From positions 1 through 42,825 of IMG/VR virus record IMGVR_UViG_3300045243_000040: a stretch of DNA of 42,825 nucleotides; one strand, written 5' to 3'. The notes beneath the pieces are model-generated. The model had not been told where the DNA came from and ran no database searches. It saw only the letters and a list, made by a program, of their open reading frames with translations. This stretch comes from a virus. Both the position numbers and the translations under genes were made by a program. This document shows positions 4,979 to 39,422 of this stretch, piece by piece. Position 1 is the first letter of the stretch. Each line of letters opens with the position of its first letter.

Positions 4979-5937
4979 GCGAGCGCCCAGACCCGGACAT
5001 AATCGACCGTCATCCTTGCCGGGCCGGGGATCGTCGGCGTCCCACCCCAGCCGCCCATGTTCAACTGCACGCAGGCTGAAACCTCGTTCGCCGTCAGATC
5101 AGCGAGGCCGACATCGGCCGCCTTCGCCGTCCAGACGAGCTTGCCGTCGAAGTAGAAGTCGACATGGTCCTTGTAGACGGCCGCCCCGTACAGGTGGAAA
5201 GCGTCGAAGAGGACGACGCCGAGCGGGTTCGCGCGGCCGCTCTGCCTGGGCGGCTTGTGCATGGTCGTATGGTTGACCTCAGGTTCGCGGCCGAGCTGCT
5301 CGACGACGTCGAGCTCCCATCCGTTCGACCCGTACGGCCAGTCCCACTCCCAGACCATCCCGTTCCAGGTGCCGACCCCGGCAGCGGGTTTGCCTCGTGT
5401 CTCGATGTAGCGGGCGCCCTTGTAGCCCGGCTTCGACGTGAGGAAGGCGCTGGCCCAGACGCTGCCGTTCTTGATGGCGGTGATGACGAGGTTGCCGTTG
5501 CCGTCAAGCTCGACGTTCTGGAGGCCGTTCCAGTAGCCGAGGCCGAGACCAGCATGGCCGGAGTGGACGTTCCACTTCGCCGTGTCGGGCTTCGACCCGG
5601 CTGGCCCGTCGAACTCGTCGCTGAACAGGATCGCGCCGAGAGGGACGGGGGCCGGTCCCGGAGGCGGCGGGGGAGGCGTGACGCTGTTGGCGACGGTGAC
5701 GGAGACTGAGGCGTGGACGGCCCCGTTCGCGGAGGCCACCCCGATCGTGTGCGGCCCGTCAGGGAGCCGCGTCGTGTCGAGTGCGAATGAGAACGGGGCG
5801 GAGGAGTCGAAGCCGCCGTACTTGCCGTCGACGAGATAGTTGACCTGGCCGACGTTCGTTGCGGAGATCTGGACGGTGACTGTCCCCTTGACGGTGGCTC
5901 CGGGTGTTGGGGAAGTGATCTTGATCGTCTGACTCAC
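4975..5937 (-). CDS. GH16-family glucanase-like protein with N-terminal Ig-like domain
   Basis: This 320-aa protein has an Ig-like beta domain (about 5-82: S-P-T-P-G-A-T-V-K-G...), a poly-Pro linker (88-99) and a GH16 catalytic domain (about 103-320). The diagnostic E-L-D-V-V-E motif is at 208-213; Glu208 and Glu213 are the expected nucleophile and acid/base, with Asp210 between them. GH16 enzymes cut beta-glucans or related polysaccharides. The GTG start overlaps the previous stop as GTGA. No signal peptide is seen, so it would be released by lysis or carried on virions. It stands apart from the tail genes, which argues for a soluble depolymerase. Confidence 0.85.
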   Translation of the reverse strand: MSQTIKITSPTPGATVKGTVTVQISATNVGQVNYLVDGKYGGFDSSAPFSFALDTTRLPDGPHTIGVASANGAVHASVSVTVANSVTPPPPPPGPAPVPLGAILFSDEFDGPAGSKPDTAKWNVHSGHAGLGLGYWNGLQNVELDGNGNLVITAIKNGSVWASAFLTSKPGYKGARYIETRGKPAAGVGTWNGMVWEWDWPYGSNGWELDVVEQLGREPEVNHTTMHKPPRQSGRANPLGVVLFDAFHLYGAAVYKDHVDFYFDGKLVWTAKAADVGLADLTANEVSACVQLNMGGWGGTPTIPGPARMTVDYVRVWALA

Positions 5938-6077
5938 GGCCTTCCTCTCTTGATAGTCGAATCGGTATGAGCGGTAGGATGCTTAGGCGTCGGCGGTTCC
6001 ATGCATCCTTCTTGCCTTGTCGATGTGGCCGTCCTGGTCATTCCTCCCTCTCTCTCGGTAGTAGCGGCAGAACTCAT
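5934..6077 (-). CDS. Small hydrophilic protein with N-terminal S-A-A element
   Basis: A 47-aa polar protein (M-S-S-A-A-T-T-E-R-E-G-G...) starting at ATG 6077 and ending in GTGA overlap with the GH16 start. Its codons 3-5 hold the shared TCTGCCGCT element. It is the last member of that series in the direction of transcription. The rest is Thr/Arg/Pro-rich and unrecognised. Confidence 0.6.
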   Translation of the reverse strand: MSSAATTEREGGMTRTATSTRQEGCMEPPTPKHPTAHTDSTIKRGRP

Positions 6078-6166
6078 ACGAGCCACCGTCCTACGTCGAG
6101 CCAGAACACGCAGCCGACGCACATGGCAAGCAGGACGCCATAGCACCAGGCTGGAGGACTATCCAC
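6074..6166 (-). CDS. Single-span membrane microprotein
   Basis: A 30-aa protein starting at GTG 6166, with AAGGA upstream in the preceding gene's last codons. One hydrophobic segment (Y-G-V-L-L-A-M-C-V-G-C-V-F-W-L) fills most of it. The start overlaps the previous stop by eight bases, and the stop overlaps the next ATG. It is similar in size and design to the microproteins at 11556-11636 and 10169-10261. Function unknown. Confidence 0.55.
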   Translation of the reverse strand: MDSPPAWCYGVLLAMCVGCVFWLDVGRWLV

Positions 6167-6392
6167 GGTGTAGTTCCTTGGCTCGGGCTGTCCAGTAGGC
6201 GAGCTTGGCTCCAATGGAGGCCGTCGCGTACCACCTCTTGAACACGCGGCGCTCGGCCTCAGCGATCTGCGCGGCAGAAGCGCCGTCCGGCCAGGGCTTG
6301 CCGTCGCTCGACGTGTCGCCCGGACGCTCCGGGCCGTTGATCTTCGCGGCAGGCTGATCGTGGCCACCACGGCGTACCGATCGAGCGAGCAA
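6159..6392 (-). CDS. Hypothetical protein with two S/P-A-A elements, start uncertain
   Basis: The C-terminal part (A-E-A-E-R-R-V-F-K-R-W-Y...) looks like real helical protein, ending at 6159. The frame contains the dispersed element twice (D-Q-P-A-A-K and G-A-S-A-A-Q). No ATG or GTG is well placed. TTG 6392 gives 77 aa and is used here provisionally, and longer starts are possible. It overlaps a differently framed ORF at 6259-6438, so one of the two could have lost its original start or end. Confidence 0.5.
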   Translation of the reverse strand: MLARSVRRGGHDQPAAKINGPERPGDTSSDGKPWPDGASAAQIAEAERRVFKRWYATASIGAKLAYWTARAKELHRG

Positions 6393-6438
6393 ATAGGCGC
6401 TTGATCGCGGCACTCGATTCGGTTCGGCGCTCAGGCAC
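6259..6438 (-). CDS. Small basic protein with S-A-A element, 3' end uncertain
   Basis: GTG 6438 follows a strong GGAGG site with ideal spacing and overlaps the upstream stop by eight bases, so initiation here is well supported. The N-terminus (V-P-E-R-R-T-E-S-S-A-A-I-K-R) carries the element. The frame runs 59 codons and overlaps the next gene in another frame by about 130 bases. The true product may be shorter, or a frameshift may have occurred. Confidence 0.5.
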   Translation of the reverse strand: MPERRTESSAAIKRLFARSIGTPWWPRSACREDQRPGASGRHVERRQALAGRRFCRADR

Positions 6439-6706
6439 GGAACCTCCAGTACGGCACCGCGCCAGGAGTCCCACCGCGAACGACTGCCCACTCGTACTCG
6501 ATGTCGGTGAAGTGCTCCGGCACCGGGAGCATCTCTACGGGATCGGCCTCCATCTGCGACAGGTTGACGCCCTGCCCGAGCGCCCACTCGCACGCAAGGG
6601 TTGGAGTCTCCCCGAGATCGCGCCTGACGAACGCCGCGTCGCCGTCGGCGTCTGACAGGTACTCCGGCGCTGCCGTATGAGCGGCAGAACGAGCGTCAGG
6701 CTGCAT
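6431..6706 (-). CDS. Hypothetical acidic protein with S-A-A element
   Basis: The 91-aa protein starts at ATG 6706 behind AGGTGG. The N-terminus reads M-Q-P-D-A-R-S-A-A-H-T-A-A, followed by an acidic, Trp-containing body (E-H-F-T-D-I-E-Y-E-W-A-V-V-R-G-G). The longer open frame to 6916 is a shadow of the next gene. No family was recognised. Confidence 0.65.
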   Translation of the reverse strand: MQPDARSAAHTAAPEYLSDADGDAAFVRRDLGETPTLACEWALGQGVNLSQMEADPVEMLPVPEHFTDIEYEWAVVRGGTPGAVPYWRFRA

Positions 6707-7091
6707 CGCCACCACCTGCGTAGTCGAGAAGGCTCCGACTGCCGAGTGGGTTGCGTGGCGTCTCACCGAGGTTGCCGAACTTCTCGTTCGCCTCGGTCTG
6801 CCGCTGCACCTGAAAATCGACCGGCAATCCCGTCCGTGCGCGGAGGTACGTCGAGCCGAGCCGGGAGAGCAGCGCCCACAGCCCCTTGCGCTCCGCGAAC
6901 AGCACGTCGTACTCATCGTCGGCCAGGATCAGGCGCACGTCCACGTCGCGGAAGTCCGGGCGGCTGCTCGCGGAACCGACGAAGTACGGGTGCGAGCCTA
7001 ACGCCGAGAGGAACGGTTTGCACGCTTCGTCCAACTCGTGCAGTTCGAGCGCCGAGAGGTAGCAGCCCTTCGCGGCAGAAGGCTCAGGCAT
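6696..7091 (-). CDS. Nucleotidyltransferase-fold protein
   Basis: The 131-aa protein has the Pol-beta-type signature: V-G-S-A-S-S-R-P-D-F-R-D-V-D-V (G-S followed by D-x-D) and a third acidic position in L-P-V-D-F-Q-V-Q. It lacks the extra domains of CCA-adding enzymes and resembles minimal nucleotidyltransferases. ATG 7091 has GGAGA upstream and puts the shared element at residues 5-7 (P-S-A-A-K). ATG 7136, overlapping the previous stop, is an alternative. Its substrate is unknown. Confidence 0.7.
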   Translation of the reverse strand: MPEPSAAKGCYLSALELHELDEACKPFLSALGSHPYFVGSASSRPDFRDVDVRLILADDEYDVLFAERKGLWALLSRLGSTYLRARTGLPVDFQVQRQTEANEKFGNLGETPRNPLGSRSLLDYAGGGDAA

Positions 7092-7128
7092 CGAGTTCTC
7101 CGAGCGCGTAGGGGACCCCTCCAGACCT

Positions 7129-7320
7129 TCACGCATCGAGTGCGCCTTTCGTGTGCGCCTGTTCTAGATTCAGGCGCTCAGCTTCAAGCACGTCGATCTC
7201 AGCGTGCAGCTTCCGTTCTAGCTCGCGGTCACGACGGTGCCATGAGATCGACCACCACCACAACGTCAGTCGGACGTGCGTGCCGAAGCCGCGAGAGACG
7301 ACGAGCGAGATTGCTCGGGT
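7129..7320 (-). pseudogene. IS-interrupted gene, 3' part
   Basis: This segment encodes the C-terminal 62 residues of a protein split by the IS element. It includes L-T-L-W-W-W-S-I-S-W and a charged coiled-coil-like helix (R-E-L-E-R-K-L-H-A-E-I-D-V-L-E-A-E-R). Joined to 9566-9487 with one target copy, it gives an uninterrupted 87-aa protein. The open frame seen here starts within the IS left end and is not native. Confidence 0.8.
7313..7320. repeat. Target-site duplication, left copy
   Basis: GCTCGGGT directly precedes the IS left end and is repeated at 9487-9494. Eight bases is the usual duplication length for the IS1595 family. Keeping a single copy restores the frame of the interrupted gene. 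Confidence 0.85.
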
Positions 7321-7356
7321 GCGGGATTGTTTACTTGACACAGGGCGGATTCCCCT

Positions 7357-7506
7357 CTATCCTTTACGGGTAGATGGATTGCGCGGCTTCTTTTTCTCAG
7401 CTTCCTTTGCCTCTTTCTTCGCTTGATCGCGTACGGGCTTCGGGAACAGCTTCCGAAGCGCCTCTTGCGTGGTCAGGTCTGACGCCTTCTTCCGAGGTCT
7501 AGCCAT
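7357..7506 (-). CDS. Small basic protein divergent from transposase
   Basis: A 49-aa, Lys/Arg-rich helical protein (M-A-R-P-R-K-K-A-S-D-L-T-T-Q-E-A-L-R-K-L-F-P-K...). Its ATG occupies 7506-7504, so it shares the CATG palindrome with the transposase start on the other strand. No strong ribosome binding site is seen. It belongs to the element rather than the phage and could regulate or assist transposition; function unknown. Confidence 0.6.
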   Translation of the reverse strand: MARPRKKASDLTTQEALRKLFPKPVRDQAKKEAKEAEKKKPRNPSTRKG

Positions 7507-8422
7507 GAGCGAGTTCAACCTTCCCGAGTTGATCGAGCAGTTCGGCTCCGAGGACAAATGCCACGCCTACCTTGAAGAGCTTCGCTGGCCGGAAGGCGTC
7601 AAGTGTCCGCGCTGCGACTCGGACAAAATCTCGAGGATTGCGAAGCGCCGGCAGTTCGACTGTGACGCCTGCAGGTATCAGTTCAGCGTCCGTGTCGGCA
7701 CCCTCTTCCATGACTCCAAGCTCCCGCTGTGGAAGTGGTTCCTGGCCGTCTACATGATGGGCGAGTCCAAGAAGGGCGTCAGCGCTAACCAGCTCAAGCG
7801 GATGCTCGGCGTCAGTTACAAGACCGCCTGGTATCTCTGCCACCGCATCCGGGCCGCGATGCACGACGAGTCCGCGCCGCTCCTGCGCGGGATCGTGGAA
7901 GCCGACGAGACCTACATCGGCGGCAAGCTGCGCCCTGGCACCTACGGGAACCCGCGTGAGGCCAAGCAACATCGCCTCGACAACAAGACGGTCGTTCTCG
8001 GCGCGGTCGAGCGCGGAGGCAAGGTCAGGCTTCGCATGGCTCCCGACGCTTCCAGCGAGTCGATCAAGGGCTTCCTGGCGGACGTGGTGGCCGACGATGC
8101 GGAAGCGATCTACACCGACGCGCACCGCTCCTATCGCGGCATCGAGGACAAGAACACCCGCCATGAGTGGGTCGACCACTCGAAGGACGAGTGGGTGCAT
8201 GGGAAGGTTCACACGAACACGGTGGAGAGTGTGTGGAGTCTCTTCGACCGCAGCGTGATCGGCGCGTACCACAAGCTCAGCACCAAGCACCTGTCCGCGT
8301 ATTTGGACGAAGCCGCGTTCCGCTGGAACAACCGCGAGAACCCCTTCTGGTTCCGCGACATGATCCTTCGTCTGGTCGAAGGCGACACCATGACCTTCGC
8401 GGAGCTGACCGCCTCCAAGTAG
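7505..8422 (+). CDS. IS1595-family transposase (ISXO2-like DDE)
   Basis: The 305-aa protein has an N-terminal zinc ribbon (C34-P-R-C37 and C53-D-A-C56) and a helix-turn-helix region around 90-115. The ISXO2-like catalytic domain follows: V-E-A-D134-E-T-Y-I-G-G, I-Y-T-D205-A-H-R-S-Y and H-T-N-T-V-E241-S-V-W. The last part (H-L-S-A-Y-L-D-E-A-A-F-R-W-N-N-R) is typical of the family. It is intact, so the element may be active. ATG 7505 follows CGAGG and is preferred to the upstream start at 7469. Confidence 0.93.
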   Translation: MSEFNLPELIEQFGSEDKCHAYLEELRWPEGVKCPRCDSDKISRIAKRRQFDCDACRYQFSVRVGTLFHDSKLPLWKWFLAVYMMGESKKGVSANQLKRMLGVSYKTAWYLCHRIRAAMHDESAPLLRGIVEADETYIGGKLRPGTYGNPREAKQHRLDNKTVVLGAVERGGKVRLRMAPDASSESIKGFLADVVADDAEAIYTDAHRSYRGIEDKNTRHEWVDHSKDEWVHGKVHTNTVESVWSLFDRSVIGAYHKLSTKHLSAYLDEAAFRWNNRENPFWFRDMILRLVEGDTMTFAELTASK

Positions 8423-8425
8423 CGC

Positions 8426-8447
8426 GACGGCCTCCGCGGAGGCCGTC
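8426..8447 (+). terminator. Perfect palindrome after the transposase gene
   Basis: GACGGCCTCCG is followed immediately by its reverse complement, four bases past the transposase stop. This forms an 11-bp stem with no T-run. It may act as a terminator or transcript-protecting hairpin for the transposase. Confidence 0.6.
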
Positions 8448-8465
8448 AGCCGAGGGCCGGAGGCC

Positions 8466-8520
8466 CCGTAGCTCAGAGCGCTGTCGTAAGCCCGCACAGT
8501 GTAGGTCCGCAGCTCGGACG
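8466..8520 (+). other. Degenerate tRNA-like fragment
   Basis: This stretch shares CCCCGTAGCTCA, the GCGCTGTCGTAAGC anticodon-arm region and GTAGGTCC with the tRNA-like gene at 8594-8666. The D loop is shortened and an insertion follows the anticodon arm. It looks like a decayed second copy. Nothing else coding was seen between 8448 and 8593. Confidence 0.5.
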
Positions 8521-8593
8521 TTGCAAGTATAGGTCCCTGAAATGGCTTGAATAGGACCTTCTTGCCGTCCGATACGCGTTCTACGTTGGTGCA

Positions 8594-8666
8594 GCCCCCG
8601 TAGCTCAGGTGGATAGAGCAACGCTGTCGTAAGCGTAGGTCCCGGGTTCGAGTCCCGGCGGGGGCC
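8594..8666 (+). tRNA. tRNA-like gene with irregular anticodon loop
   Basis: Acceptor arms GCCCCCG (8594-8600) and CGGGGGC (8659-8665) pair perfectly. The D stem is GCTC/GAGC. The T arm is CCGGG-TTCGAGT-CCCGG (8642-8658). The anticodon arm ACGCT-GTCGTA-AGCGT gives a six-base loop, or eight bases with a four-bp stem, instead of seven. The amino acid therefore cannot be assigned safely; UCG (Arg), CGU (Thr) or GUC (Asp) are all readable. CCA is not encoded. It lies inside the IS, between the transposase and the passenger gene. Confidence 0.7.
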
Positions 8667-8700
8667 CGCCACTTCTCCAATTGCCGCACCTTGTGGGAAA

Positions 8701-9408
8701 TCACGAGGGTTCCTTCTTCGCGTCGACCTGAGACGCAATGGTCTCGTCTGCGGCGCGGATGGTCTCTAGCGTCTCGTCCAACTTCACTATGTCTGCATCG
8801 GAAAGTTCGAAGGCGGGCGTTTTCGTGAATACAGCCATTGGATTGGCCTCTCTGTGGGCCACCCGCCTGCCCTCTATCCGGTGGTTCATCCGGTTGCAAC
8901 ACTGATAAGCCAATCTGACCGTGTCTCTCGCGTTGGCGGGAAGTGCTGGATCGGCAAGGGCCGCGAAATGGTCTGAATGCTGCTGGGCGGGCAAGGCGTC
9001 GTGAGACCTCCACCATGCGCCGCGCTCCTTCGCTTCTTCAATAACCGCAGCGGCTGAGCGAAGCTCGCCCTGCATCGCCAGAAGACCAATTCGCAGCGTC
9101 GCTGGCGCTCCTGTAGAAGCCTCGATCCGATCAATCCTTTGGTCAAGGCTCGCAAGCTCTTCTCGAATCAACGCAAACGGCGATGAGACCCACAGCGAAA
9201 GAAGAATGAGGACCAGCGCCACGAGCAGTCCTATCGCTGCCCAGACCACTGTCCAAAACACAGCGCCCTTTTCGCCATGCCCCCACGAGAAAATGATTCC
9301 TCCCGCCAGGCCACCAAGACCGCACAGCGCGAGCAAAATCCAAGCGCGCCAATCGCTCGTGACGGTCCGCCAAAACGTGCTTCTGGCCCGGTCGCGTGGT
9401 TTTTGCAT
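8701..9408 (-). CDS. IS passenger: two-span membrane protein
   Basis: The 235-aa protein has two hydrophobic segments (about 22-41 and 50-74) and then a long soluble helical tail (L-I-R-E-E-L-A-S-L-D-Q-R-I-D-R-I-E-A). It lies wholly inside the IS and runs opposite to the transposase. It lacks the start-proximal element of the surrounding phage genes, which supports a foreign origin. No family was recognised; a host-derived cargo gene is the simplest reading. Confidence 0.7.
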   Translation of the reverse strand: MQKPRDRARSTFWRTVTSDWRAWILLALCGLGGLAGGIIFSWGHGEKGAVFWTVVWAAIGLLVALVLILLSLWVSSPFALIREELASLDQRIDRIEASTGAPATLRIGLLAMQGELRSAAAVIEEAKERGAWWRSHDALPAQQHSDHFAALADPALPANARDTVRLAYQCCNRMNHRIEGRRVAHREANPMAVFTKTPAFELSDADIVKLDETLETIRAADETIASQVDAKKEPS

Positions 9409-9486
9409 TGATCAGATTCGATAAAGTCCGGGGCGGATGGTTCGGCGCATAAGCTAGCACCAGCCTTGCGTGAAGTAAACAATCCC

Positions 9487-9494
9487 GCTCGGGT
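9487..9494. repeat. Target-site duplication, right copy
   Basis: The second copy of GCTCGGGT adjoins the right end of the IS. Together with 7313-7320 it marks a simple transposition event without deletion of flanking DNA. Confidence 0.85.
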
Positions 9495-9566
9495 GTAGGT
9501 GTTGCGTTCACGCTGGACGCGGAACCCGCTGCGCCGACCCCACGCGGCAGGATGTTCGGCGCTCAC
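9487..9566 (-). pseudogene. IS-interrupted gene, 5' part
   Basis: GTG 9566 has GAGG upstream and overlaps the preceding stop as GTGA. It encodes the first 26 residues (M-S-A-E-H-P-A-A-W-G-R-R...), including a P-A-A version of the dispersed element, and then enters the IS. Read across the excised element into 7312-7129 it gives an 87-aa protein with no frameshift. The original function is unknown. Confidence 0.8.
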
Positions 9567-9925
9567 GACGGCCTCGCAGTCAGGTCAACGTGGTCGCTCG
9601 ACGTAGGAACGCGCAGCGGCTCAGCCCCGACCTCGCGGACATGGCGAGCCATCCACTCCACGAACTCCCTCGCCTTCGGCTCGTCCATGCTCACGGCGTC
9701 GATCACAACCTCGCGACCGAGGATCAGGTTGAGCGCGTTCCGCAGTCGCCAGCGCCAGCCCGAGCCGGGGAGCTTGTAGACCTCGATGAACCACTCGGCC
9801 GGATCGTCCTTGAAGGGCGCGTAGAAGCTCACGCCGAGGATCGAGCAGCCGCACTCGCAGCGGTACTCGCGCGTGACCTGGCGCGGCGGCGCAGTAGCGG
9901 CAGGCTGATCGTTACGCGGGTTCAT
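9563..9925 (-). CDS. Hypothetical protein with Cys cluster
   Basis: The 120-aa protein begins M-N-P-R-N-D-Q-P-A-A-T, with the dispersed element at residues 8-10. A Y-R-C-E-C-G-C cluster near residue 22 suggests metal binding. The middle is Trp-rich (G-S-G-W-R-W-R-L-R-N) and the C-terminus is helical. No family was recognised. It overlaps the neighbouring genes on both sides. Confidence 0.7.
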   Translation of the reverse strand: MNPRNDQPAATAPPRQVTREYRCECGCSILGVSFYAPFKDDPAEWFIEVYKLPGSGWRWRLRNALNLILGREVVIDAVSMDEPKAREFVEWMARHVREVGAEPLRVPTSSDHVDLTARPS

Positions 9926-10172
9926 ATGTCTCCCCGAAGATGTCCGGCTTCACCGGGTAGAACTCGCCCTGCACTCCACGGATGATCCAGTCGTTGTCGC
10001 TCACGCTCAATGGCCCTTCGAGGGTCATGCAGTAGACGCCCGCCTCGTCGTTGTAGGCGACGTTGCCGCCGCTCCACCACTCGATCAGCTTCAAGCTCTC
10101 GGCGTCGGTGAACTGCATCGCCTCGATCACGACGGGCTTCTTGCGGTAGCGCTGCGCGGCAGAATCGCTCAC
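9912..10172 (-). CDS. Conserved phage protein of the R-K-K-P-V-V-I-E-A type
   Basis: The 86-aa protein reads V-S-D-S-A-A-Q-R-Y-R-K-K-P-V-V-I-E-A-M-Q-F, then a D-W-I-I-R-G-V-Q-G-E-F-Y-P-V-K-P-D-I-F segment. This pattern is widespread in phage genomes without a known function. GTG 10172 has AAGGAG with five-base spacing, which decides it over the adjacent GTG 10175. Serine-Ala-Ala at 4-6 is the dispersed element. Confidence 0.8.
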   Translation of the reverse strand: MSDSAAQRYRKKPVVIEAMQFTDAESLKLIEWWSGGNVAYNDEAGVYCMTLEGPLSVSDNDWIIRGVQGEFYPVKPDIFGETYEPA

Positions 10173-10261
10173 CACGGCTCCTTCGTCAGCCCTAGCCTGA
10201 GGATGCCCACAAGGATGAGAACGACGGCTACCGCTGCGCCAAGCGCGAATCAGGATTTCAC
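10169..10261 (-). pseudogene. Membrane microprotein frame with in-frame TGA at codon 4
   Basis: GTG 10261 overlaps the upstream stop as GTGA, and the frame ends as TGA over the next start. Codon 4 is TGA. After it the frame encodes a clean membrane span (A-L-G-A-A-V-A-V-V-L-I-L-V-G-I-L-R-L-G-L). Without the TGA it would be a 30-aa membrane microprotein like those at 6074 and 11556. It is either a nonsense mutant, a readthrough case or a base error. Confidence 0.45.
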
Positions 10262-10401
10262 TCGGCACTGTCACACGCTCCGCACTTAGAGCAGCACCAT
10301 CCGTCTGCGTTATCCCACGTCACGAAGCGGTCGGCGTCAGCGCCGCAGTTGCCACAAGCCTCGAAGTCGGGCTGTGGCAGCGTGGTCACTGCGCTAGACA
10401 C
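10258..10401 (-). CDS. Zinc-ribbon microprotein
   Basis: A 47-aa protein from GTG 10401, with two cysteine pairs (C-G-N-C and C-C-S-K-C-G-A-C). The N-terminus V-S-S-A-V-T-T is a variant of the S-A-A-T-T element. It overlaps the genes on both sides. Short zinc ribbons of this kind usually bind nucleic acids or proteins; the specific role is unknown. Confidence 0.7.
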   Translation of the reverse strand: MSSAVTTLPQPDFEACGNCGADADRFVTWDNADGWCCSKCGACDSAE

Positions 10402-10540
10402 GCGTGACGCCTCCCCACGCCGTCGTCCCGTTGGTTCCGAAGTTCATGTGTGCGCCCTTGTGTCCGGCAAGTAGCTCACATTTGAGCTTGCCGTCAAGCG
10501 TCCTCACTTCACACTTCGCGGCAGACCGATCAGCTTCCAC
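10394..10540 (-). CDS. Small protein with D-R-S-A-A-K element
   Basis: The 48-aa product (V-E-A-D-R-S-A-A-K-C-E-V-R-T-L-D-G-K-L-K...) starts at GTG 10540 behind GAGGAG. It overlaps the next gene by eight bases. The C-terminal half is Gly/Thr-rich (H-M-N-F-G-T-N-G-T-T-A-W-G-G). Two cysteines and two histidines could bind metal. Unrecognised. Confidence 0.65.
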   Translation of the reverse strand: MEADRSAAKCEVRTLDGKLKCELLAGHKGAHMNFGTNGTTAWGGVTRV

Positions 10541-10724
10541 GGCTCTCCTCGGCGTAGGCGTTCACGGCAGCGACGATCAGGTCGGCTACAGCATCAGAGC
10601 GCACTCTGGTTACCACCGTCTTGTCGTCAGCAGCACGAATGAACACAGGCGATCCGTGAATCTCAGGCATGACGTACCACGGTGTCGGCGGCGCTGCGCC
10701 GAGCAGCTGCGCGGCAGAAGTCAT
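10530..10724 (-). CDS. Hypothetical protein, 64 aa, with S-A-A element
   Basis: ATG 10724 overlaps the Dam-type methyltransferase stop as ATGA. The N-terminus is M-T-S-A-A-Q-L-L-G. The rest is a compact mixed sequence (I-H-G-S-P-V-F-I-R-A-A-D-D-K-T-V-V-T-R-V). An upstream in-frame ATG at 10745 is possible but would lie in the methyltransferase gene. Unrecognised. Confidence 0.65.
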   Translation of the reverse strand: MTSAAQLLGAAPPTPWYVMPEIHGSPVFIRAADDKTVVTRVRSDAVADLIVAAVNAYAEESRGS

Positions 10725-11200
10725 GCGGCCACCCCCGTCGCCCATCTATCGAAGACCAGCAACACGCAATCGACGGGTGAGTTGTGGCCCTTCTGACCCT
10801 CCGGGCCGCTCCCGAATGACGGGCGGCCAAGGAAGTAGCGGACGGTCGCTCCGAGGTCGAGTGCTCGGTGAAACCAACGCGCGTTCGTCCTGGCAGGCAC
10901 AAGCAGCACCGCGAGATCCGCCAGCGCTGCCTGCTCTATGAACGGGGGAATGTTCGACCATGGCGGGTTACAGAACACGCGCTCGCCTTCCCAACACAGC
11001 GGCTGCTTGGCTGTCGAAGCGTGCGGTAGTAGTCCGTTACCCGGCTCGCTCGCGCCGTCGAGGGTGAAGTTGTATTCGTCGTGGAGCGGGCCGAAGATGG
11101 AGTCCGGTGTTGTCCAGTTCTGCTTGCGTCCGCGCCCATACCAGAAGACGTAGCGGTCACGCGGCTCGGTAGTAGCGGCAGTCCGATCAGGTGAGTCCAC
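10721..11200 (-). CDS. Phage N6-adenine DNA methyltransferase (Dam-type)
   Basis: The 159-aa protein matches the phage DNA N-6-adenine methyltransferase family. It has a W-T-T-P-D-S-I-F-G-P-L-H-D-E-Y-N-F-T-L-D start, the N-P-P-W catalytic motif (78-81), an A-V-L-L-V-P-A-R-T-N-A-R-W-F-H segment and a terminal G-H-N-S-P-V-D-C-V-L-L-V-F. These enzymes often protect phage DNA from restriction. The element D-R-T-A-A-T-T sits at residues 5-11, ahead of the catalytic part, so it looks added to an ordinary enzyme. Confidence 0.88.
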   Translation of the reverse strand: MDSPDRTAATTEPRDRYVFWYGRGRKQNWTTPDSIFGPLHDEYNFTLDGASEPGNGLLPHASTAKQPLCWEGERVFCNPPWSNIPPFIEQAALADLAVLLVPARTNARWFHRALDLGATVRYFLGRPSFGSGPEGQKGHNSPVDCVLLVFDRWATGVAA

Positions 11201-11405
11201 GGAGCGCCTCCTCGACCGTGTGGCAGCCGTTCGCCGGAAGCAGGAGGTCGATCACGTCGCGGAGGCTCAGGTATTCCTCGGCGAGCGCGTACAGGCGCGG
11301 GTCGCCGTAGGTGTCGATCTCGTCGATGATCCGCTTCGCCGTCTCGACCGGCGGCTCGGTCGTTGCGGCAAATGACCTTTCAAAGTCCTTTGAATGTCCT
11401 TTCAC
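11187..11405 (-). CDS. Small helical protein with F-A-A-T-T element
   Basis: The 72-aa protein starts at GTG 11405, overlapping the upstream stop as GTGA. Its N-terminus (V-K-G-H-S-K-D-F-E-R-S-F-A-A-T-T-E-P) has a TTTGCCGCA variant of the element. The remainder is acidic and helical (R-I-I-D-E-I-D-T-Y-G-D-P-R-L-Y-A-L-A-E-E-Y). Unrecognised. Confidence 0.65.
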   Translation of the reverse strand: MKGHSKDFERSFAATTEPPVETAKRIIDEIDTYGDPRLYALAEEYLSLRDVIDLLLPANGCHTVEEALRGLT

Positions 11406-11566
11406 TTCGGCTCTTTCGCCACGACAGGCTCGTCGTAGCCGTCGTCGTCACCGACGCCATACGTCCAGAGCGCGAAGCCGGGAGGCATGACCCACGCCGC
11501 GAGAGCAGCCCGCCAGAGAGCGAACCGTGAGAGCGTTGTCGCGGCAGAGCGTGCTTCACCAGGCAT
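11402..11566 (-). CDS. Small protein with A-R-S-A-A-T-T element
   Basis: A 54-aa product from ATG 11566, with GAGGTG upstream. It has the element at residues 6-11 and then a hydrophobic, Trp-containing middle (F-A-L-W-R-A-A-L-A-A-W-V-M-P-P-G-F-A-L-W). The tail is acidic (D-D-D-G-Y-D-E). It could be membrane-associated. Unrecognised. Confidence 0.6.
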   Translation of the reverse strand: MPGEARSAATTLSRFALWRAALAAWVMPPGFALWTYGVGDDDGYDEPVVAKEPK

Positions 11567-11636
11567 AGAGCACCTCGATCAACACGAGCGCCGAGCCGAG
11601 CACGGCAACGATCAACAGAAGGCCATCAGCGGCCAC
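11556..11636 (-). CDS. Single-span membrane microprotein
   Basis: A 26-aa protein, almost all membrane span (L-L-L-I-V-A-V-L-G-S-A-L-V-L-I-E-V-L). GTG 11636 overlaps the upstream stop by eleven bases, and the stop overlaps the next gene's start region. Codons 1-3 (GTG GCC GCT) resemble the element core. Function unknown. Confidence 0.55.
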   Translation of the reverse strand: MAADGLLLIVAVLGSALVLIEVLYAW

Positions 11637-11829
11637 GGCGCACCAACTCTCGTTCGGTCATGCGCCCCGCGAAGTACGCGATAACGATTGAGGCATAGAC
11701 GAAGAACCGCTGCCAGAACAGGTCCCCTATGACCGCTCCTGTACCGGCTGCGAACAGCACTACGGCAGCCAGCGGCGGCCAAGCCGACCGCTCGAAGCGC
11801 GTCGCGGCACTAAACTCGTTCGGCTTCAC
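11626..11829 (-). CDS. Two-span membrane protein with S-A-A-T element
   Basis: The 67-aa protein starts at GTG 11829 behind GAGGAG. It reads V-K-P-N-E-F-S-A-A-T-R and then has two hydrophobic stretches (L-A-A-V-V-L-F-A-A-G-T-G-A-V-I and F-F-V-Y-A-S-I-V-I-A-Y-F) and a basic tail. No family was recognised. It is too short and too far from the lysin to call a holin. Confidence 0.65.
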   Translation of the reverse strand: MKPNEFSAATRFERSAWPPLAAVVLFAAGTGAVIGDLFWQRFFVYASIVIAYFAGRMTERELVRRGR

Positions 11830-12001
11830 GGCGACGCCTCTCCTCGAAGGTCAGGTGGTAATGGCAGTGGTCGTAGCCGCGGATTGGCCGGTTCTTGCAG
11901 TAGCGACGTGAAAGCACGACGCGAGGATGCCCGGGCCATTCGCGCTTGATGGCTGCTCCGCAGCGAGGCTGCGCGGCAGAGCGTGCGTCTGGAGCGCTCA
12001 T
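11810..12001 (-). CDS. Small Cys/His protein with A-R-S-A-A-Q element
   Basis: The 63-aa protein starts at ATG 12001. After the element (D-A-R-S-A-A-Q) it has Cys and His residues (Q-P-R-C-G, R-Y-C-K-N-R, Y-D-H-C-H-Y-H) spaced as in a small zinc site and a charged C-terminal helix (F-E-E-R-R-R-R-E-A-E-R). Unrecognised beyond a probable metal-binding fold. Confidence 0.65.
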   Translation of the reverse strand: MSAPDARSAAQPRCGAAIKREWPGHPRVVLSRRYCKNRPIRGYDHCHYHLTFEERRRREAERV

Positions 12002-12300
12002 ACCCGTACCGTCCGTTCGTCGATGACGTAGACCTTGCCCGCCGGAACGAGGCTCGATGTGCGCTTCTTGTGGTCAGCGAGTGGTTCGCCGCAGGCGTGA
12101 CAGTGGTAGAACGGCTGACCTTCGGGAAGCACCGTCCTCGACACGCAGAAGATGTGGCAGGTCGCGGCAGAACGGTCGGCTAGCTGGTTGAGCGACTTCC
12201 ACATGCCGTCGTTCGGGCAGCCCTCATGGAAGGTGGCCGTGGGCCACACGGCGATGTCCATGCGCTCCCCGCAGCCGGAGCAGTAGTGCGTGTCAGCCAT
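11998..12300 (-). CDS. Zinc-ribbon protein with internal D-R-S-A-A-T element
   Basis: ATG 12300 gives 100 aa and starts M-A-D-T-H-Y-C-S-G-C-G-E-R. A second Cys/His set follows (C-H-I-F-C and C-H-A-C-G). In-frame ATG 12204 would give 68 aa and place the element at residues 11-13, as in the neighbouring genes. The longer form fills the space to the upstream gene and overlaps its stop. It may be a fusion of an extra ribbon to an element-bearing gene. Confidence 0.65.
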   Translation of the reverse strand: MADTHYCSGCGERMDIAVWPTATFHEGCPNDGMWKSLNQLADRSAATCHIFCVSRTVLPEGQPFYHCHACGEPLADHKKRTSSLVPAGKVYVIDERTVRV

Positions 12301-12547
12301 GCCGCACCCGCTTCTTCGGCAGGCGAACCTCGTGGGTCGCGCCATCGGCGCACTCGCGCCCGTGCCCGACGAGCCATGCTTCGCATCGGCGCGGCTTGTA
12401 GCCGGGCGGCACGGTCTCGTCCTCGAACATGCACTGGTGGTAGTGGGCGTCTTGGTCGCCGTAGGGGCCAAAGTGCCCGTAGAACAGCGACCACTCGTGC
12501 TCGTGGTCATCCCACGACGGAGTAGCGGCAGTCCGATCCTCAGCCAC
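12293..12547 (-). CDS. Hypothetical protein with D-R-T-A-A-T element
   Basis: The 84-aa protein begins V-A-E-D-R-T-A-A-T-P-S-W-D-D-H-E-H-E-W-S-L-F and has several His and Cys residues (H-Y-H-Q-C, R-R-C-E-A-W, G-R-E-C). GTG 12547 overlaps the upstream stop by eight bases. A metal-binding role is plausible, but no family was recognised. Confidence 0.65.
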   Translation of the reverse strand: MAEDRTAATPSWDDHEHEWSLFYGHFGPYGDQDAHYHQCMFEDETVPPGYKPRRCEAWLVGHGRECADGATHEVRLPKKRVRHG

Positions 12548-12722
12548 GCGGGCCTCTGATCTGCATGGCCGAGACGATCCAGACACGGCCGCACTCGCAC
12601 AGTTTGGCTGCGCCCTCGATGGTCGCTATCGCCTTCCCGCAGACGCAGACGATCCCGACCGAAGCGAGCGGTGGCCGGTCGTCTAGGCGCACGGTCGTAG
12701 CGGCACTCGAGTTAGCGCACAT
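12540..12722 (-). CDS. Zinc-ribbon protein with S-S-A-A-T-T element
   Basis: A 60-aa product from ATG 12722, with AAGGAG upstream. After M-C-A-N-S-S-A-A-T-T the body is a classical small ribbon (C-V-C-G-K...L-C-E-C-G-R-V-W). The longer open frame to 12824 is a shadow of the next gene. Confidence 0.7.
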   Translation of the reverse strand: MCANSSAATTVRLDDRPPLASVGIVCVCGKAIATIEGAAKLCECGRVWIVSAMQIRGPRG

Positions 12723-13176
12723 CTTCCGTCTCCTTGAGGTAACGGGACTCGAGCGCCTGCCGAAGGTTGTACGCCCGGTTCGTCGGAACCCACAAGCCCT
12801 TGCCGACGTAGCCGACGAGGCCATGCTTCATCGCCTCACGCAGCGCCGCAGCCGTCGAGCGTGGAGACGTAGCCTCCGCGTCGTAGAGCATGATCTCGGC
12901 CGCGGTCAGGACTCCCATGCCGTGCGCGTAGGGGCCAGAGCCTTCGAGCAGCGCATGGACAGCGTGCGCGGTGCGGCGCGGGAGGTTGCCGACCCACACA
13001 TCATCGAGCAGCCGGCTCTGCGGTGCCGGAGTAGCGGCAGGAGAATCGGCGGGTGCTTGCCCGAGAGAACACCCCGGACTACTTCCGCTGACCTCTGGGC
13101 CGCTCGTCAGCGAACCCTCAGCGTGGCTGCCCGCCGCAGCCGATTCAGGAAAGTTAGCGGCGCTCGACCTATCCAC
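12712..13176 (-). CDS. Winged-helix-like DNA-binding protein
   Basis: The 154-aa protein starts at GTG 13176 behind GGAGGAG. The first 55 residues are low-complexity Ser/Pro/Ala and hold two copies of the element (S-S-A-A-N and S-P-A-A-T). The C-terminal 95 residues look like a winged helix (V-L-T-A-A-E-I-M-L-Y-D...A-A-L-R-E-A-M-K-H-G-L-V-G-Y-V-G-K-G-L-W). A role in DNA binding is inferred. Confidence 0.65.
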   Translation of the reverse strand: MDRSSAANFPESAAAGSHAEGSLTSGPEVSGSSPGCSLGQAPADSPAATPAPQSRLLDDVWVGNLPRRTAHAVHALLEGSGPYAHGMGVLTAAEIMLYDAEATSPRSTAAALREAMKHGLVGYVGKGLWVPTNRAYNLRQALESRYLKETEDVR

Positions 13177-13429
13177 GGCGCTCCTCCAGCACCCTGTTGA
13201 CCTCAGCTACGAGCCGGATGCCGTCCTGATTCCATGCATAGGTCTGGATGTGCTGCGCGAGCCGCTGAAGCAGCCGACCAACTTCGCTGTCAGCCTTGAT
13301 CGTTCGCGCTTCCATGCGCTCACCTCCTCTCGCGCCCCCGCTTGCGAGCGCGGTCGAAGTGTCGCACCGTGGAGGCGTATGAGCGGCAGCATCAGGGTGA
13401 CGATCAGATCCAGACGTGAAAGAACTCAC
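13169..13429 (-). CDS. Hypothetical protein, start uncertain
   Basis: GTG 13429 overlaps the methyltransferase stop as GTGA, giving 86 aa with the element as P-D-A-A-A-H. A second in-frame start, ATG 13315, has an ideal AGGAGGTGA ribosome binding site and would give 48 aa (M-E-A-R-T-I-K-A-D-S-E-V-G-R-L-L-Q-R-L). The helical C-terminus is certainly expressed. The first 38 codons may be a leader or an alternative long form. Confidence 0.6.
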   Translation of the reverse strand: MSSFTSGSDRHPDAAAHTPPRCDTSTALASGGARGGERMEARTIKADSEVGRLLQRLAQHIQTYAWNQDGIRLVAEVNRVLEERRG

Positions 13430-14915: not shown

Positions 14916-14990
14916 GCGCGGTGACTTTCGTTCTTTACGCCACACTGGCACCCTGACGCCTTTCGTGCCCGGAGAGTCATGCCTTCGACC

Positions 14991-16163: not shown

Positions 16164-16612
16164 GATGTGACTCGTCCCTTCTGATAGACGCCGACCGCAT
16201 AGGGCAAACTCGCAGCCTTGAACTGGCCCACGGTGTAGCCTTTATGGGAGTCGGCGTTGTATTGATTCGCCGCGTCGTTACGGTCGTTCAACTGCGCGGT
16301 GAAATTGATCCGATCGCGGCTCAGATCGCTGCCCTTGTCGGTCCGCTCAGCCACGAGCGTCTGCTGAAGCGCCTGCTCCATCGTCTGCACCGACGCGCAG
16401 AGATCGAAGAAATGGTTGTACGCCTGGATGCGAAACGGTCCGCTCTGGATCTGCTGTCGCGCCTGGAGCTTTCCCTGCCATGGAGCAGCAACCCACCCGA
16501 CGCCCCACAAGATCAGCAGCAAGACAATTATGAGCGCGAGAATGCCGAGCACCCACAGCGCCAGGTTTCCGAAGAGCCCCTTCTGGGTTCTTGGTTCGTA
16601 TGCGTTATCCAC
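16151..16612 (-). CDS. Single-span membrane protein
   Basis: The 153-aa protein has one strong membrane span (about 16-45: L-A-L-W-V-L-G-I-L-A-L-I-I-V-L-L-L-I-L-W), then an extracytoplasmic, Gln/Asp-rich helical domain. Two Cys residues may form a disulfide. It precedes the lipoprotein gene and overlaps it by 13 bases, so the two products probably act together at the membrane. Confidence 0.7.
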   Translation of the reverse strand: MDNAYEPRTQKGLFGNLALWVLGILALIIVLLLILWGVGWVAAPWQGKLQARQQIQSGPFRIQAYNHFFDLCASVQTMEQALQQTLVAERTDKGSDLSRDRINFTAQLNDRNDAANQYNADSHKGYTVGQFKAASLPYAVGVYQKGRVTSCGA

Positions 16613-17746
16613 TTATGGTGCCTCCGTAATCGGCGGACTGTTGCGGGCCAGCTTCTCGAGCCGGTCGATGAGGTTGGACGCTTCGTCTTTGCTGAGCGTC
16701 TCGCGAAGCGGCGCCCAGTGAAGTTCCTCGTAATCGTCGCGCTTTGCCATAGGTGGATCTTGATTGCGCATCTTCGCGACCGCCATATACAGGTGTTCCG
16801 TGTGCAACCTGCCAGCCTCCCGCAGCGTCCCGACCAGCACGTTCAGCTTCTTCTTCTGGTCGGCCGTGATCTTCAGCGGGCGCTTCGTCTCCGTGATCTC
16901 CTTGCCACCGGGTGCGTCGTTGGGGACCGGGACGGGTGAGTCCTCGAACAGGAGGTCGTCAGCGGGCGGGATCGGCGCGGCCGAGCGGGCGGTGCGCGTC
17001 GTCGGCACGGGCTCGGCCTCCAACGCTTCCTTGAGGCCGACTGCGGCCATCAGGCGCGGCGGGATCGGCGTGTACGACATCTCGCCGTTGCCCGGCTCGA
17101 GCGCCGGCCGTCCACCCGACGCCAGCTGCTCATAGCTGACCTGGCAGTCGAGCACCGGCACCACATACCGAACTGCCTGTCCGTTCACATTGCCGCGCCG
17201 CTCCACGATCCTGAGTTTCGCCGGCACGAACGGGCGGCCCTGCGCGATACCCTGCACGAGCTCCAGCGAGCCGAGCAACTCCCGTGCGGCGTTCTCGCCC
17301 TTCGATTCGAGCCTCCAGCCGAGTAGCGTCGTCAACTCCGGTAGTGCCACGGTCAGACGGGTGATGAGCGAGCACTTGTCGTCGCCCTCCGCTACGCACT
17401 TGCAGGGCTGGCCGTCGTCCATCTCGATCCCGTCGCAACGCCGCTCCACCAGGGTCGGCGACGTGCGCAGCTCGTAAGACTGGCGCAGGCTGTAGTTGAC
17501 CAGAACGAGGACAGGCAGTTCCGAGGTCTCGGTCGTGAGCTGGAACTGCGGGCCGGTCGGCGATTCCCAAGGGGTAGGTGTTCCGCCGTACAGGCCCGCA
17601 GCCTGAGCGATCAGCCCCTGGTCGGGGCTGGTCAGACGCCAGTGGGTGAGGCGGCGCGGTTCGCCCTTGGGGCCTTTTTCGCCCATGCGGATGCGGCCGG
17701 CCTCGGAGAGGCGGCGCTGTAGCTCGATCAGTGGTGTGGGGCTCAT
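16613..17746 (-). CDS. phiC31 gp3-like protein (recombination directionality factor family)
   Basis: The 377-aa protein matches the gp3-like family. It has G-R-I-R-M-G-E-K-G-P-K-G-E-P-R-R-L-T-H-W-R-L-T-S, Y-G-G-T-P-T-P-W, and R-R-C-D-G-I followed by P-C-K-C. The C-terminal part is a charged helical region. In phiC31 gp3 switches the serine integrase to excision, but relatives occur in phages without an integrase and may serve in replication. No integrase was found here. It sits next to a RecB-like exonuclease. Confidence 0.8.
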   Translation of the reverse strand: MSPTPLIELQRRLSEAGRIRMGEKGPKGEPRRLTHWRLTSPDQGLIAQAAGLYGGTPTPWESPTGPQFQLTTETSELPVLVLVNYSLRQSYELRTSPTLVERRCDGIEMDDGQPCKCVAEGDDKCSLITRLTVALPELTTLLGWRLESKGENAARELLGSLELVQGIAQGRPFVPAKLRIVERRGNVNGQAVRYVVPVLDCQVSYEQLASGGRPALEPGNGEMSYTPIPPRLMAAVGLKEALEAEPVPTTRTARSAAPIPPADDLLFEDSPVPVPNDAPGGKEITETKRPLKITADQKKKLNVLVGTLREAGRLHTEHLYMAVAKMRNQDPPMAKRDDYEELHWAPLRETLSKDEASNLIDRLEKLARNSPPITEAP

Positions 17747-18048: not shown

Positions 18049-18845
18049 CAGGCGATCACGGCCTGGGGACCCGACAGCGGTGTGCCGATCACGTTGCGCG
18101 AGGTCTCCACTTGCCAGCGCGCCACTTCCATGACGTGCCGCCAAGCCTTCCAAACTCGGTCCGAGGTGTCCACCACGCACAGCATGTAGTCGTCGGGTGA
18201 GATGACAAGGCACGCCGCCCCGTCGGTCTCAGGCATCGACGGATGCTCAGCGTCAGGGTTGAATAAGTAGTAGCGCTTCCCTCCCGTGTAGCGTCGTTCA
18301 GCGAGCACGCCGACATACTCAGCTCTGCGGTAGCTGACCAACTGCAGCGCGACCTCGGGAAACGGTGGCCGAGTCTTGCCGGAATCCTTCCCGTACTGGG
18401 TCGTCTTCAGATCCAAGACGAGTGTCTGTCCGTCGATCTTGACGATCGCGTCCAGCGTGCCGGCGTATCCGGCGCTCACGTTGTAGACGGGCGCTTCGGC
18501 CATCAGGAACTCCGGCTGAAAGTCAGCGAGGAACTGGTCGTACTGCTCGAGCAAAGGGATGTTCTGCGGGTCAATGTCGACGGGTTCGCCGAGCGCTCGA
18601 GCCTCCGCGGCCCTATGCACATCTGTCCCACGGGCGAGCGCGACGCTCGTCTTCGCCCAGCGCTGATCGCAGAGCCACTTGACCGCGCCGTCTCGGTCGC
18701 CGTCCTTGAGCATGGCTTGCACGATATGTCCGCGATCGACTGCCGCCTCCGCCGTCGTGCGAATCGCCCAATTCACGAGCGGATCGCTTGTGCCCATGCC
18801 GAGTTTGGCGAGCGTCGTCGATGACCAAAGTTTTAGCTCAGCCAT
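18048..18845 (-). CDS. RecB-family PD-(D/E)xK exonuclease
   Basis: The 265-aa protein has the RecB/Cas4-like nuclease order. V-H-R-A-A-E (His77, Glu81) is followed by A-G-T-L-D-A-I (Asp132), V-L-D-L-K-T-T (Asp145, Lys147) and A-L-Q-L-V-S-Y (Gln168, Tyr172). Such enzymes make 3' ends for phage recombination or degrade host DNA. ATG 18845 follows CAGGAG. No RecT or Erf annealing partner was recognised nearby. Confidence 0.88.
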   Translation of the reverse strand: MAELKLWSSTTLAKLGMGTSDPLVNWAIRTTAEAAVDRGHIVQAMLKDGDRDGAVKWLCDQRWAKTSVALARGTDVHRAAEARALGEPVDIDPQNIPLLEQYDQFLADFQPEFLMAEAPVYNVSAGYAGTLDAIVKIDGQTLVLDLKTTQYGKDSGKTRPPFPEVALQLVSYRRAEYVGVLAERRYTGGKRYYLFNPDAEHPSMPETDGAACLVISPDDYMLCVVDTSDRVWKAWRHVMEVARWQVETSRNVIGTPLSGPQAVIA

Positions 18846-19056
18846 GGTGCTCCTGTTCGGTGGGAGGCGGTGCCGCGGCCGCCTCCCGGCCGTGCCCTAA
18901 TACGTGTGGATCGGGCAAGGCAGCCAGCCCGCGAGCAGCGCGAGCGCGCAGGCGAGCAGGATCAGCTTCGCCCTCATCGCCCCACCTCCTTCCATGTTGA
19001 AGGGCCCGCAGCTTGTCGTGGAAGGCCTGCTCCCTGGTTCCGGTCAGGATCGGCAT
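18838..19056 (-). CDS. Small ORF overlapping an in-frame-shifted signal peptide ORF
   Basis: A 72-codon frame beginning M-P-I-L-T-G-T-R-E-Q-A-F-H-D-K-L at ATG 19056, coupled to the previous stop as TAATG. The first 25 residues look protein-like, and the later part is Ala/Arg-rich. It entirely covers the 26-codon ORF at 18897-18977 in another frame. Only one of them may be the true product. Confidence 0.45.
   Translation of the reverse strand: MPILTGTREQAFHDKLRALQHGRRWGDEGEADPARLRARAARGLAALPDPHVLGHGREAAAAPPPTEQEHHG
18897..18977 (-). CDS. Membrane or secreted microprotein
   Basis: A 26-aa ORF behind a very strong ribosome binding site (AAGGAGGTGGGGCG, ATG 18977). It reads M-R-A-K-L-I-L-L-A-C-A-L-A-L-L-A-G-W, a basic start and hydrophobic core like a signal peptide or anchor. 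A possible lipobox-like L-L-A-C is present. It lies within a longer frame (18838-19056), but the ribosome binding site favours it. Confidence 0.55.
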   Translation of the reverse strand: MRAKLILLACALALLAGWLPCPIHTY

Positions 19057-19190
19057 TAGGCCCGTGCCTTCTTCGAGCGGTCTTGGCGTTGGCATCCCTC
19101 GCCCGCGTAGCAGTAGCGCTGCTGCGTCCAGCGGGAGAAGATCCATTGGCCGCCCTTGAGCAGCCGGCCGCAACGGGCGCACTTATGCAT
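19056..19190 (-). CDS. Zinc-ribbon microprotein
   Basis: A 44-aa protein, M-H-K-C-A-R-C-G-R-L-L-K-G-G-Q-W, followed by C-Y-A-G-E-G-C and a basic tail. ATG 19190 overlaps the upstream stop by eight bases. The two cysteine pairs support a zinc ribbon; the partner is unknown. Confidence 0.7.
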   Translation of the reverse strand: MHKCARCGRLLKGGQWIFSRWTQQRYCYAGEGCQRQDRSKKARA

Positions 19191-39378: not shown

Positions 39379-39392
39379 TTCTCCTTTCGTTA

Positions 39393-39422
39393 GGGGAGGC
39401 CCGGCATAGCCCGAGCCTCCCC
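39393..39422 (-). terminator. Stable hairpin between capsid and downstream gene
   Basis: On the minus strand, GGGGAGG and CCTCCCC pair, with an inner CGGGC/GCCGG extension. The hairpin lies between the capsid stop and the ribosome binding site of the next gene. There is no T-run, so it may cut read-through or protect the capsid mRNA's 3' end, raising capsid dose. No other feature was seen here. Confidence 0.6.

Follow-up and report, generated by a model that had tools for sequence, protein, structure and literature searches.

In the 42,825-base virus record IMGVR_UViG_3300045243_000040, analysed here over its whole length (the window, or G000), a block of small genes carries the six-base sequence TGCCGC in frame shortly after the start codon. 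The array is in frame, its six-base core is constrained at the base level, the parts on either side of the core are shuffled, and homology breaks at the core. From these sequence comparisons we think that TGCCGC probably serves as the in-frame seam at which a phage array exchanges its gene cassettes. Each small gene of such an array would consist of a short start leader, running from the start codon to the core (1–16 codons), and a body running from the core to the stop codon. The core is repeated about 7–20 times per genome, in a bank of some 10–25 small unrelated genes per phage.

Since its ends repeat 127 bases, the window record is probably a complete genome. It encodes the terminase, portal, prohead protease and major head protein of actinophage-like siphoviruses, and its 17–36 kb part had no DNA match in the phage database. 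IMG/VR holds 40 relatives of its portal protein, several of them in records of 28–45 kb, and eleven of these genomes or fragments, G000 included, were read fully or nearly so. A leader-type pattern, GAMGCACGCTCTGCCGCG, matched four records in 2.9 million, two being array phages already known and one, G020, being new. A looser leader pattern gave mostly chance matches, and a cluster filter on its loci yielded G022, G023 and G024. When 84,980 bacterial and archaeal genomes were searched with GAMGCACGCTCTGCCGCG, the 32 matches were scattered and none lay within a recognisable array, so that no host or prophage was identified. The array phages span 26–72 kb, and TGCCGC arrays occur in otherwise different phages: almost none of twelve tested window proteins, or their structural relatives, are present in G020, G022 and G024, indicating that the cassettes cross phage groups.

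The first-pass annotation of the window had described a start-proximal element in nearly every gene of the block, always on the coding strand. The observation is borne out. Over the whole window TGCCGCK matches 53 times compared to 30.5 expected from shuffles, whereas between 5950 and 13450 it occurs 21 times on the coding (minus) strand, where 2.1 are expected from the same-strand rate in the rest of the genome (Poisson P 1.9e-14), and once on the opposite strand. The corresponding blocks of related phages behave alike, with, mostly on the coding strand, 19 copies against 1.9 expected in G001, 16 against 1.7 in G003 and 18 against 4.3 in G019. Summed over nine arrays, the coding strand has 121 copies and the opposite strand 15. 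An automatic rule placed 97 of the 121 in frame and at most 17 codons from a start that has a ribosome-binding site; most of the others are in frame too, lying within fused genes or downstream of starts that the rule missed. One-base variants (TGTCGC, TGCTGC, TGACGC, AGCCGC, CGCCGC and others) are not enriched in the window; the block holds single variant copies, namely AGTGCCGC, TTTGCCGCA, CGCCGC (13162), TACCGC (5976) and an eroded SSAV (about 10393). Even strand use, random position, or loss of position and frame in relatives had been named beforehand as counting against the pattern. None of these was seen: both strand and position show a bias, and phages that are related, as well as ones otherwise unrelated, keep the position and the frame. 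The pattern is thus real and replicated, and codon use does not explain it.

The placement of the core relative to the genes is also regular. Across 111 elements it lies 1–16 codons downstream of the start codon. In the window Ala-Ala falls at codons 3–14 in most genes. The first description needs correcting for a few internal in-frame copies (13039, 12169 and 6276) and for the gene at 6351, whose start is unclear. As had been noted, most starts have an ordinary Shine-Dalgarno sequence in front of them. In most elements the upstream gene stops 1–17 bases 3′ of the start, and the median distance from this stop to the core is about 7 bases. Leader and preceding gene thus overlap, and a cassette therefore carries its neighbour's start. 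An alternative-frame start (NTG-CCG) at the core was considered and rejected, as the downstream frame is not consistently open. Downstream-box pairing to 16S rRNA was set aside as well, no convincing complement being known.

Conservation of the core reaches the wobble bases, as had been claimed. In all elements the codon before Ala-Ala ends in T, whichever residue it encodes (S, P, A, T, D, N, F, L, V, G, H or I), and the first alanine codon is GCC throughout, giving NNT-GCC-GCN. The residue before the alanine pair, first given as S, T or P, is also A or F in the window and D, N, V, L and others in relatives. The elements were themselves picked by the string TGCCGC; the unbiased comparison is of Ala-Ala pairs in arrays and in structural genes of the same phages. 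Here T precedes the GCC of Ala-Ala in 53 of 68 pairs near array starts and in 37 of 272 in structural genes. Serine in the elements is encoded by TCT or AGT in 39 of 39 cases, these two making up 11% of serine codons in structural genes. Neighbouring leader codons vary synonymously (GAT/GAC, CGG/CGC/CGT). Since the wobble bases are fixed while flanking leader codons vary in this way, the six-base core is held at the base level and the rest of the leader at most at the peptide level.

We compared the elements pairwise by outward extension from the core, with an equal threshold on both sides (111 elements from nine phages, 6105 pairs). Homology extended to the left in 79 pairs, to the right in 25 and to both sides in none. 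In the left-homologous pairs the median extension past the core was one base. Anchoring on any TGCCGC in the arrays gave 102 pairs with left homology, 33 with right homology and one with both. For 150 control frequent 6-mers from the same arrays, each at least 40 bases away from any core, homology was two-sided in 126 of 179 homologous pairs (70%). Because the pairs are mutually dependent, neither set of counts amounts to a probability.

Individual joints illustrate both kinds of break. The body of window gene 9925–9563 has 92% identity over 347 bases to a gene of G020 from the core on, with no similarity upstream; its leader is ATGAACCCGCGTAACGATCAGCC in the window but ATGAC in G020. In these two phages the KPVVIEA gene likewise has a common body and differing leaders. 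Conversely, leaders of 25–26 bases are 100% identical between phages, and identity stops at the last base of the core or the next one. An entry leader, VSSFT(S/P)GSDR...DAAA, opens the arrays of G000, G001, G020 and G024 and ends at the first core, beyond which the bodies differ. On a larger scale, homology between G003 and G022 (86%, 916 nt) and between G022 and G023 (76%, 913 nt) runs through a recombinase gene to the first core and then ceases. A body that is found behind MAERNEPTAATSS in G002 occurs in G020 as part of an in-frame fusion, joined at the core to a different small gene. Vertical descent with body turnover, the order of leaders being kept, was rejected, as the G000/G001 leader pairs are not collinear. 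Leaders, from start to core, and bodies, from core to stop, thus act as separate parts of two kinds. Among the roles first proposed for the element, homology for shuffling cassettes is the one favoured by homology that starts and stops at the six bases. A translational or operator element and an N-terminal tag are weakened, a peptide tag alone because the wobble bases are invariant and a DNA operator because the reading frame is locked. A start-associated expression element could also double as the seam.

A second core is found in a sister phage, G007, that lacks the TGCCGC array. Its top enriched start-proximal 6-mer is TGACGC, and its block has 14 TGACGCK on the coding strand, against 3.3 expected, and a single one on the opposite strand; most copies are near a start and in frame. 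Two of its genes have 220 bases in common from the core exactly, behind different leaders. At the ends of the contig one body of 208 bases, with one mismatch, stands behind two unrelated leaders, the break being at the first base of the core; this pair looks like a recent exchange.

The element also appears as an addition to proteins that elsewhere do without it. The G007 orthologue of the Dam-type methyltransferase (gene 11200–10721), 75% identical, starts MSTDPYVAWYGRG where the window has VDSPDRTAATTEPRDRYVFWYGRG. Phage-database homologues of four further array proteins mostly align from residues 7–8, 22–23, 10–12 and 18–19, downstream of the element, so that homologues of five array genes in total lack it. 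For two homologues from Microbacterium phage Shocker the alignment reaches residue 1, their annotated starts being later. Annotators should be aware that the first 5–15 residues of such proteins belong to the exchange system and not to the protein family.

In the mechanism we propose, crossovers in or at the core would swap leaders and bodies between positions and between phages, and any swap would keep the frame because every core is read as NNT-GCC-GCN. The leader often contains the stop codon of the preceding gene, and a cassette would bring its neighbour's start, the next start sitting inside the end of the previous gene. The core itself may be a crossover site recognised by an enzyme, most likely an upstream Xer/IntI-like tyrosine recombinase, which would have been supplied in trans to the phage of the window or lost from it. 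Alternatively, the core could serve as short homology for the phages' own recombination enzymes, a route suggested by the exonuclease and Holliday-junction resolvase-like protein that the phage of the window encodes. The fuller proposal, which we advance tentatively as a possibility, is of a phage-borne system of its own kind, in which an enzyme would recombine a six-base in-frame core and so tile leaders and bodies within and between unrelated phages, lineages differing in their core (TGCCGC or TGACGC).

The candidate enzyme belongs to one family of ~300-residue Xer/IntI-like tyrosine recombinases encoded by G003, G022, G023, G020, G024 and L325, all with arrays downstream. Five aligned members conserve the full R-K-HxxR-H-Y set (Arg, Lys, HxxR, His and Tyr). 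The array follows the recombinase gene directly in G003, G022 and G023, and begins about 0.7, 0.9 and 3.6 kb farther on in G020, G024 and L325, respectively. Its closest matches among profiles and structures are XerC, XerA, XerD and IntI4, at scores that fall far short of the family cut-offs (50–54 bits for the IntI family, cut-off 265 bits). L325 (IMGVR_UViG_3300045141_000168) is a 45-kb phage found by the recombinase search, with a short TGCCGC array at 5920–12097 whose peptides include MTAAT, VSADRSAAT, LSSRDQPAAK, MADRTPSAAQ, MARDESSAAN and one eroded copy, AERSVAQD. In G024 the last ~25 codons of the recombinase are repeated ~150 bases downstream (1715–1789 and 1919–2842), an arrangement that suggests insertion of a segment at the gene's 3′ end, a possible attachment site.

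Several observations weigh against an enzyme-made seam, or against the core as its sole site. G000 has no match to a tyrosine or serine recombinase family, G001, G019 and G007 have no tyrosine recombinase, and a serine recombinase, looked for in the phages, was not found; conversely, L321 and L324 encode relatives of the recombinase and lack a TGCCGC array. There is no dyad around the core, the complementarity of left and right arms being near expectation at positions 1–18, and 70-nt windows around the core fold as random ones do (−22.4 and −22.0 vs −22.7 and −22.2 kcal/mol on the two strands). With neither dyad symmetry nor excess folding, no classical recombinase site is seen. Given these points, the link between enzyme and seam is a putative one, drawn from gene neighbourhood. 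Further, two cassettes common to G000 and G020 have their right ends at the stop codon, 11–14 nt short of the next core; the start codon is often where a leader begins; and the anchor GTGAGC is also mostly one-sided. The core is therefore not the only seam, some breaks falling at the adjoining start or stop codon, and on the same grounds cassettes running purely from core to core were rejected as the only unit. Finally, the leader shows mild conservation at the protein level (45 third-position vs 38 first- or second-position differences), which a pure seam does not need.

The main rival is a start-associated expression element, TGCCGC being bound by a ribosomal, RNA or phage factor through which translation in the accessory operon would be controlled. 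Every gene entering the block would then have to be fused behind the element, with the homology breaks as a by-product. Such an element would account for the near-universal occurrence of the core in the blocks, its position adjoining the start and just past the upstream stop codon, its base-level constraint and its confinement to one operon-like block, and it has an analogy in the start-associated sequences of cluster K and EF phages (PMC3203893, PMC7302621). We nevertheless consider it unlikely: it needs no single reading frame, yet leaders of many lengths keep one, and it does not predict that leaders and bodies both end at the same six bases. Moreover, in-frame internal copies are retained inside fused genes, and a sister phage has TGACGC instead. 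A common N-terminal peptide tag (acidic-x-S/T/P-Ala-Ala), routing unrelated early proteins to one place or protease, is quite improbable. DRSAA, DQPAA, ARSAA, DPSAA and EHPAA do recur, always in frame, and leader changes lean to third positions, but the wobble data already disfavour a tag: the first Ala is always GCC after a codon ending in T, and no synonymous versions of the TCN-GCG-GCN type were recognised near starts. Moreover, G007 has x-Asp-Ala at that place and homologous proteins of other phages lack the peptide. An operator or stoperator, that is, an asymmetric DNA site for a phage repressor blocking elongation in lysogeny, is very improbable, for although the core is asymmetric, in one orientation and in many copies in an early block, as are cluster A stoperators (PMC9283540), it keeps to one reading frame, measures just six or seven bases and would leave the homology breaks unexplained. 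Chance, codon bias or assembly artefact is scarcely credible even for a GC-rich genome with common GCC and GCG and for records that are metagenome assemblies, being refuted by replication in ten records drawn from several samples, single-genome Poisson P values as low as 2e-14, depletion on the opposite strand, absence outside the block, closure of most records with 127-bp end repeats, and seams far shorter than the likely assembly word size.

The copies of the core in the window, and the features around them, are collected in Table 1. TGCCGC copies inside the IS1595-type insertion are unrelated, because the insertion splits the block; it carries a transposase (7469–8422, plus strand), inverted repeats CGGGATTGTTTACTT, a further open reading frame and an imperfect tRNA-like sequence (8594–8667).

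Table 1. Copies of the core and associated features in the window, in array order, then other features.
Feature	Positions	Strand	Remark
Core TGCCGC, first (entry) gene, start 13429, leader VSSFTSGSDRHPDAAAHT	13383..13388	-	entry leader also in G001, G020, G024
Eroded core CGCCGC, gene 13176-12712 (VDRSSAANF)	13157..13162	-	
Internal in-frame core, codon 46 of gene 13176-12712 (ADSPAATPA)	13034..13039	-	
Core, gene 12722-12540 (MCANSSAATT)	12700..12705	-	
Core, gene 12547-12293 (VAEDRTAAT)	12525..12530	-	26-nt leader + core 100% identical to G001 34856-34831; bodies differ
Internal in-frame core (LADRSAATCH)	12164..12169	-	reads as two small genes fused
Core, gene 12001-11810 (MSAPDARSAAQ)	11973..11978	-	
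Core, membrane protein gene 11829-11626 (VKPNEFSAAT)	11804..11809	-	
Core, gene 11566-11402 (MPGEARSAATT)	11541..11546	-	
Core variant TTTGCCGCA, gene 11405-11187 (ERSFAATTEP)	11365..11370	-	
Core, Dam-type methyltransferase gene 11200-10721 (VDSPDRTAATTEP)	11175..11180	-	G007 orthologue without extension
Core, gene 10724-10530 (MTSAAQ)	10711..10716	-	
Core, gene 10540-10394 (VEADRSAAK)	10518..10523	-	
Core, gene 10172-9912 (VSDSAAQRYRKKPVVIEA)	10156..10161	-	same body in G020 behind leader ATGAC
Core, gene 9925-9563 (MNPRNDQPAATAPP)	9897..9902	-	G020 body match from core; leader different
Core, gene starting 9566 (VSAEHPAAW)	9544..9549	-	interrupted by IS1595-type element
Core, nucleotidyltransferase-like gene 7091-6696 (MPEPSAAK)	7072..7077	-	homologues align from residue 10-15
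Core, gene 6706-6431 (MQPDARSAAHT)	6681..6686	-	
Core, gene 6438-6259 (VPERRTESSAA)	6407..6412	-	
Core (GHDQPAAKIN)	6346..6351	-	leader in common with G001 35358
Internal in-frame core (DGASAAQIAE)	6271..6276	-	same open reading frame as core 6346..6351
Core, gene 6077-5934 (MSSAATTER)	6064..6069	-	
Eroded core TACCGC (KHPTAHTDS)	5971..5976	-	last copy before glycosyl hydrolase gene
52-nt leader near head of array region	14919..14970	-	94-100% in G001, G003, G020; candidate operon leader
IS1595-type insertion, 8-bp target duplication CACCCGAG	about 7322..9487	.	splits array; not part of system

Other conserved or repeated sequences were also observed. A sequence of 45–52 nt, GGGCACGAAAGGCGTCAGGGTGCCAGTGTGGCGTAAAGAC..AAAGTCACCG, encoding MPVWRK, is 94–100% identical near the array head of four phages (window 14919–14970, G001 39342–39393, G003 19419–19463, G020 26805–26856) and is followed by differing sequence; it may be an operon leader or another seam. 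In G004 (18099–19434) and G005 (1733–2237), relatives that lack TGCCGC arrays, GCGAGGAC sits immediately ahead of the start of each of three genes, which makes it a start-associated repeat of the classical, upstream kind. Within an array gene of G003 (16304–16694) a 12-bp tandem repeat (GCCGCAGCCNGG) encodes a long Ala-rich stretch.

The literature searched gave no description of such a system, although absence there is not proof. The cassette arrays of integrons and CALINs are described with IntI, attI and attC (PMC8618304). Like them, the phage array consists of small, mostly unknown, co-oriented genes with a conserved entry leader, has a compact tyrosine recombinase 0–3.6 kb upstream in six phages and contains cassettes common to unrelated carriers; like CALINs, some array phages lack the recombinase. 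The entry leader conserved in G000, G001, G020 and G024, and the end of the 913–916 nt homologies of G003, G022 and G023 at the first core, may point to a counterpart of attI. The array differs from an integron in being phage-carried, in having as its seam six in-frame coding bases near the 5′ end rather than a hairpin attC after the gene, in a recombinase far below the IntI cut-off and encoded upstream in the same direction, and in the separation of leader and body. It is integron-like in several respects but is not an integron, since neither an attC-type hairpin nor a dyad was found, and it is linker-like but sits inside genes.

Linkers, short conserved boundary sequences, have been proposed at mosaic junctions of lambdoid and other phages (PMC3029335). 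As there, a short common sequence marks the joints of modules, allows exchange without loss of function and is where homology between phages begins or ends; unlike linkers, the joint here is inside genes, in frame, present about 7–20 times per genome and flanked by freely recombined leaders and bodies. The first-pass comparison with cluster K start-associated sequences (SAS), which lie upstream of the start (PMC3203893), is fair in kind. The SAS and ESAS of cluster K mycobacteriophages and cluster EF Microbacterium phages are likewise short one-orientation repeats at the starts of many unrelated genes. However, SAS are 13 bp long and lie upstream of the start at the ribosome-binding site, whereas the core follows the start by 1–16 codons, and cluster K ESAS stay with a gene family across genomes, whereas element and body are here uncoupled. 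Cluster A mycobacteriophage stoperators share the asymmetric, repeated, one-orientation site, but are 13-bp repressor sites stopping transcription, with no frame and no homology seam. As for Xer/dif and phage integrase core sites, the six-base centre equals the Xer overlap in length, and overlap sequences may vary between systems (here TGCCGC or TGACGC), but there are no inverted recombinase-binding arms around it.

The seams in phage mosaics of small genes are usually invisible. Here there is a defined six-base seam, readable at about a hundred joints, and the trade in accessory genes among phages therefore becomes directly testable. If an enzyme acts on the core, the array would be a phage counterpart of the integron with frame-preserving joints, and would make an attractive tool for in-frame gene fusions and libraries.

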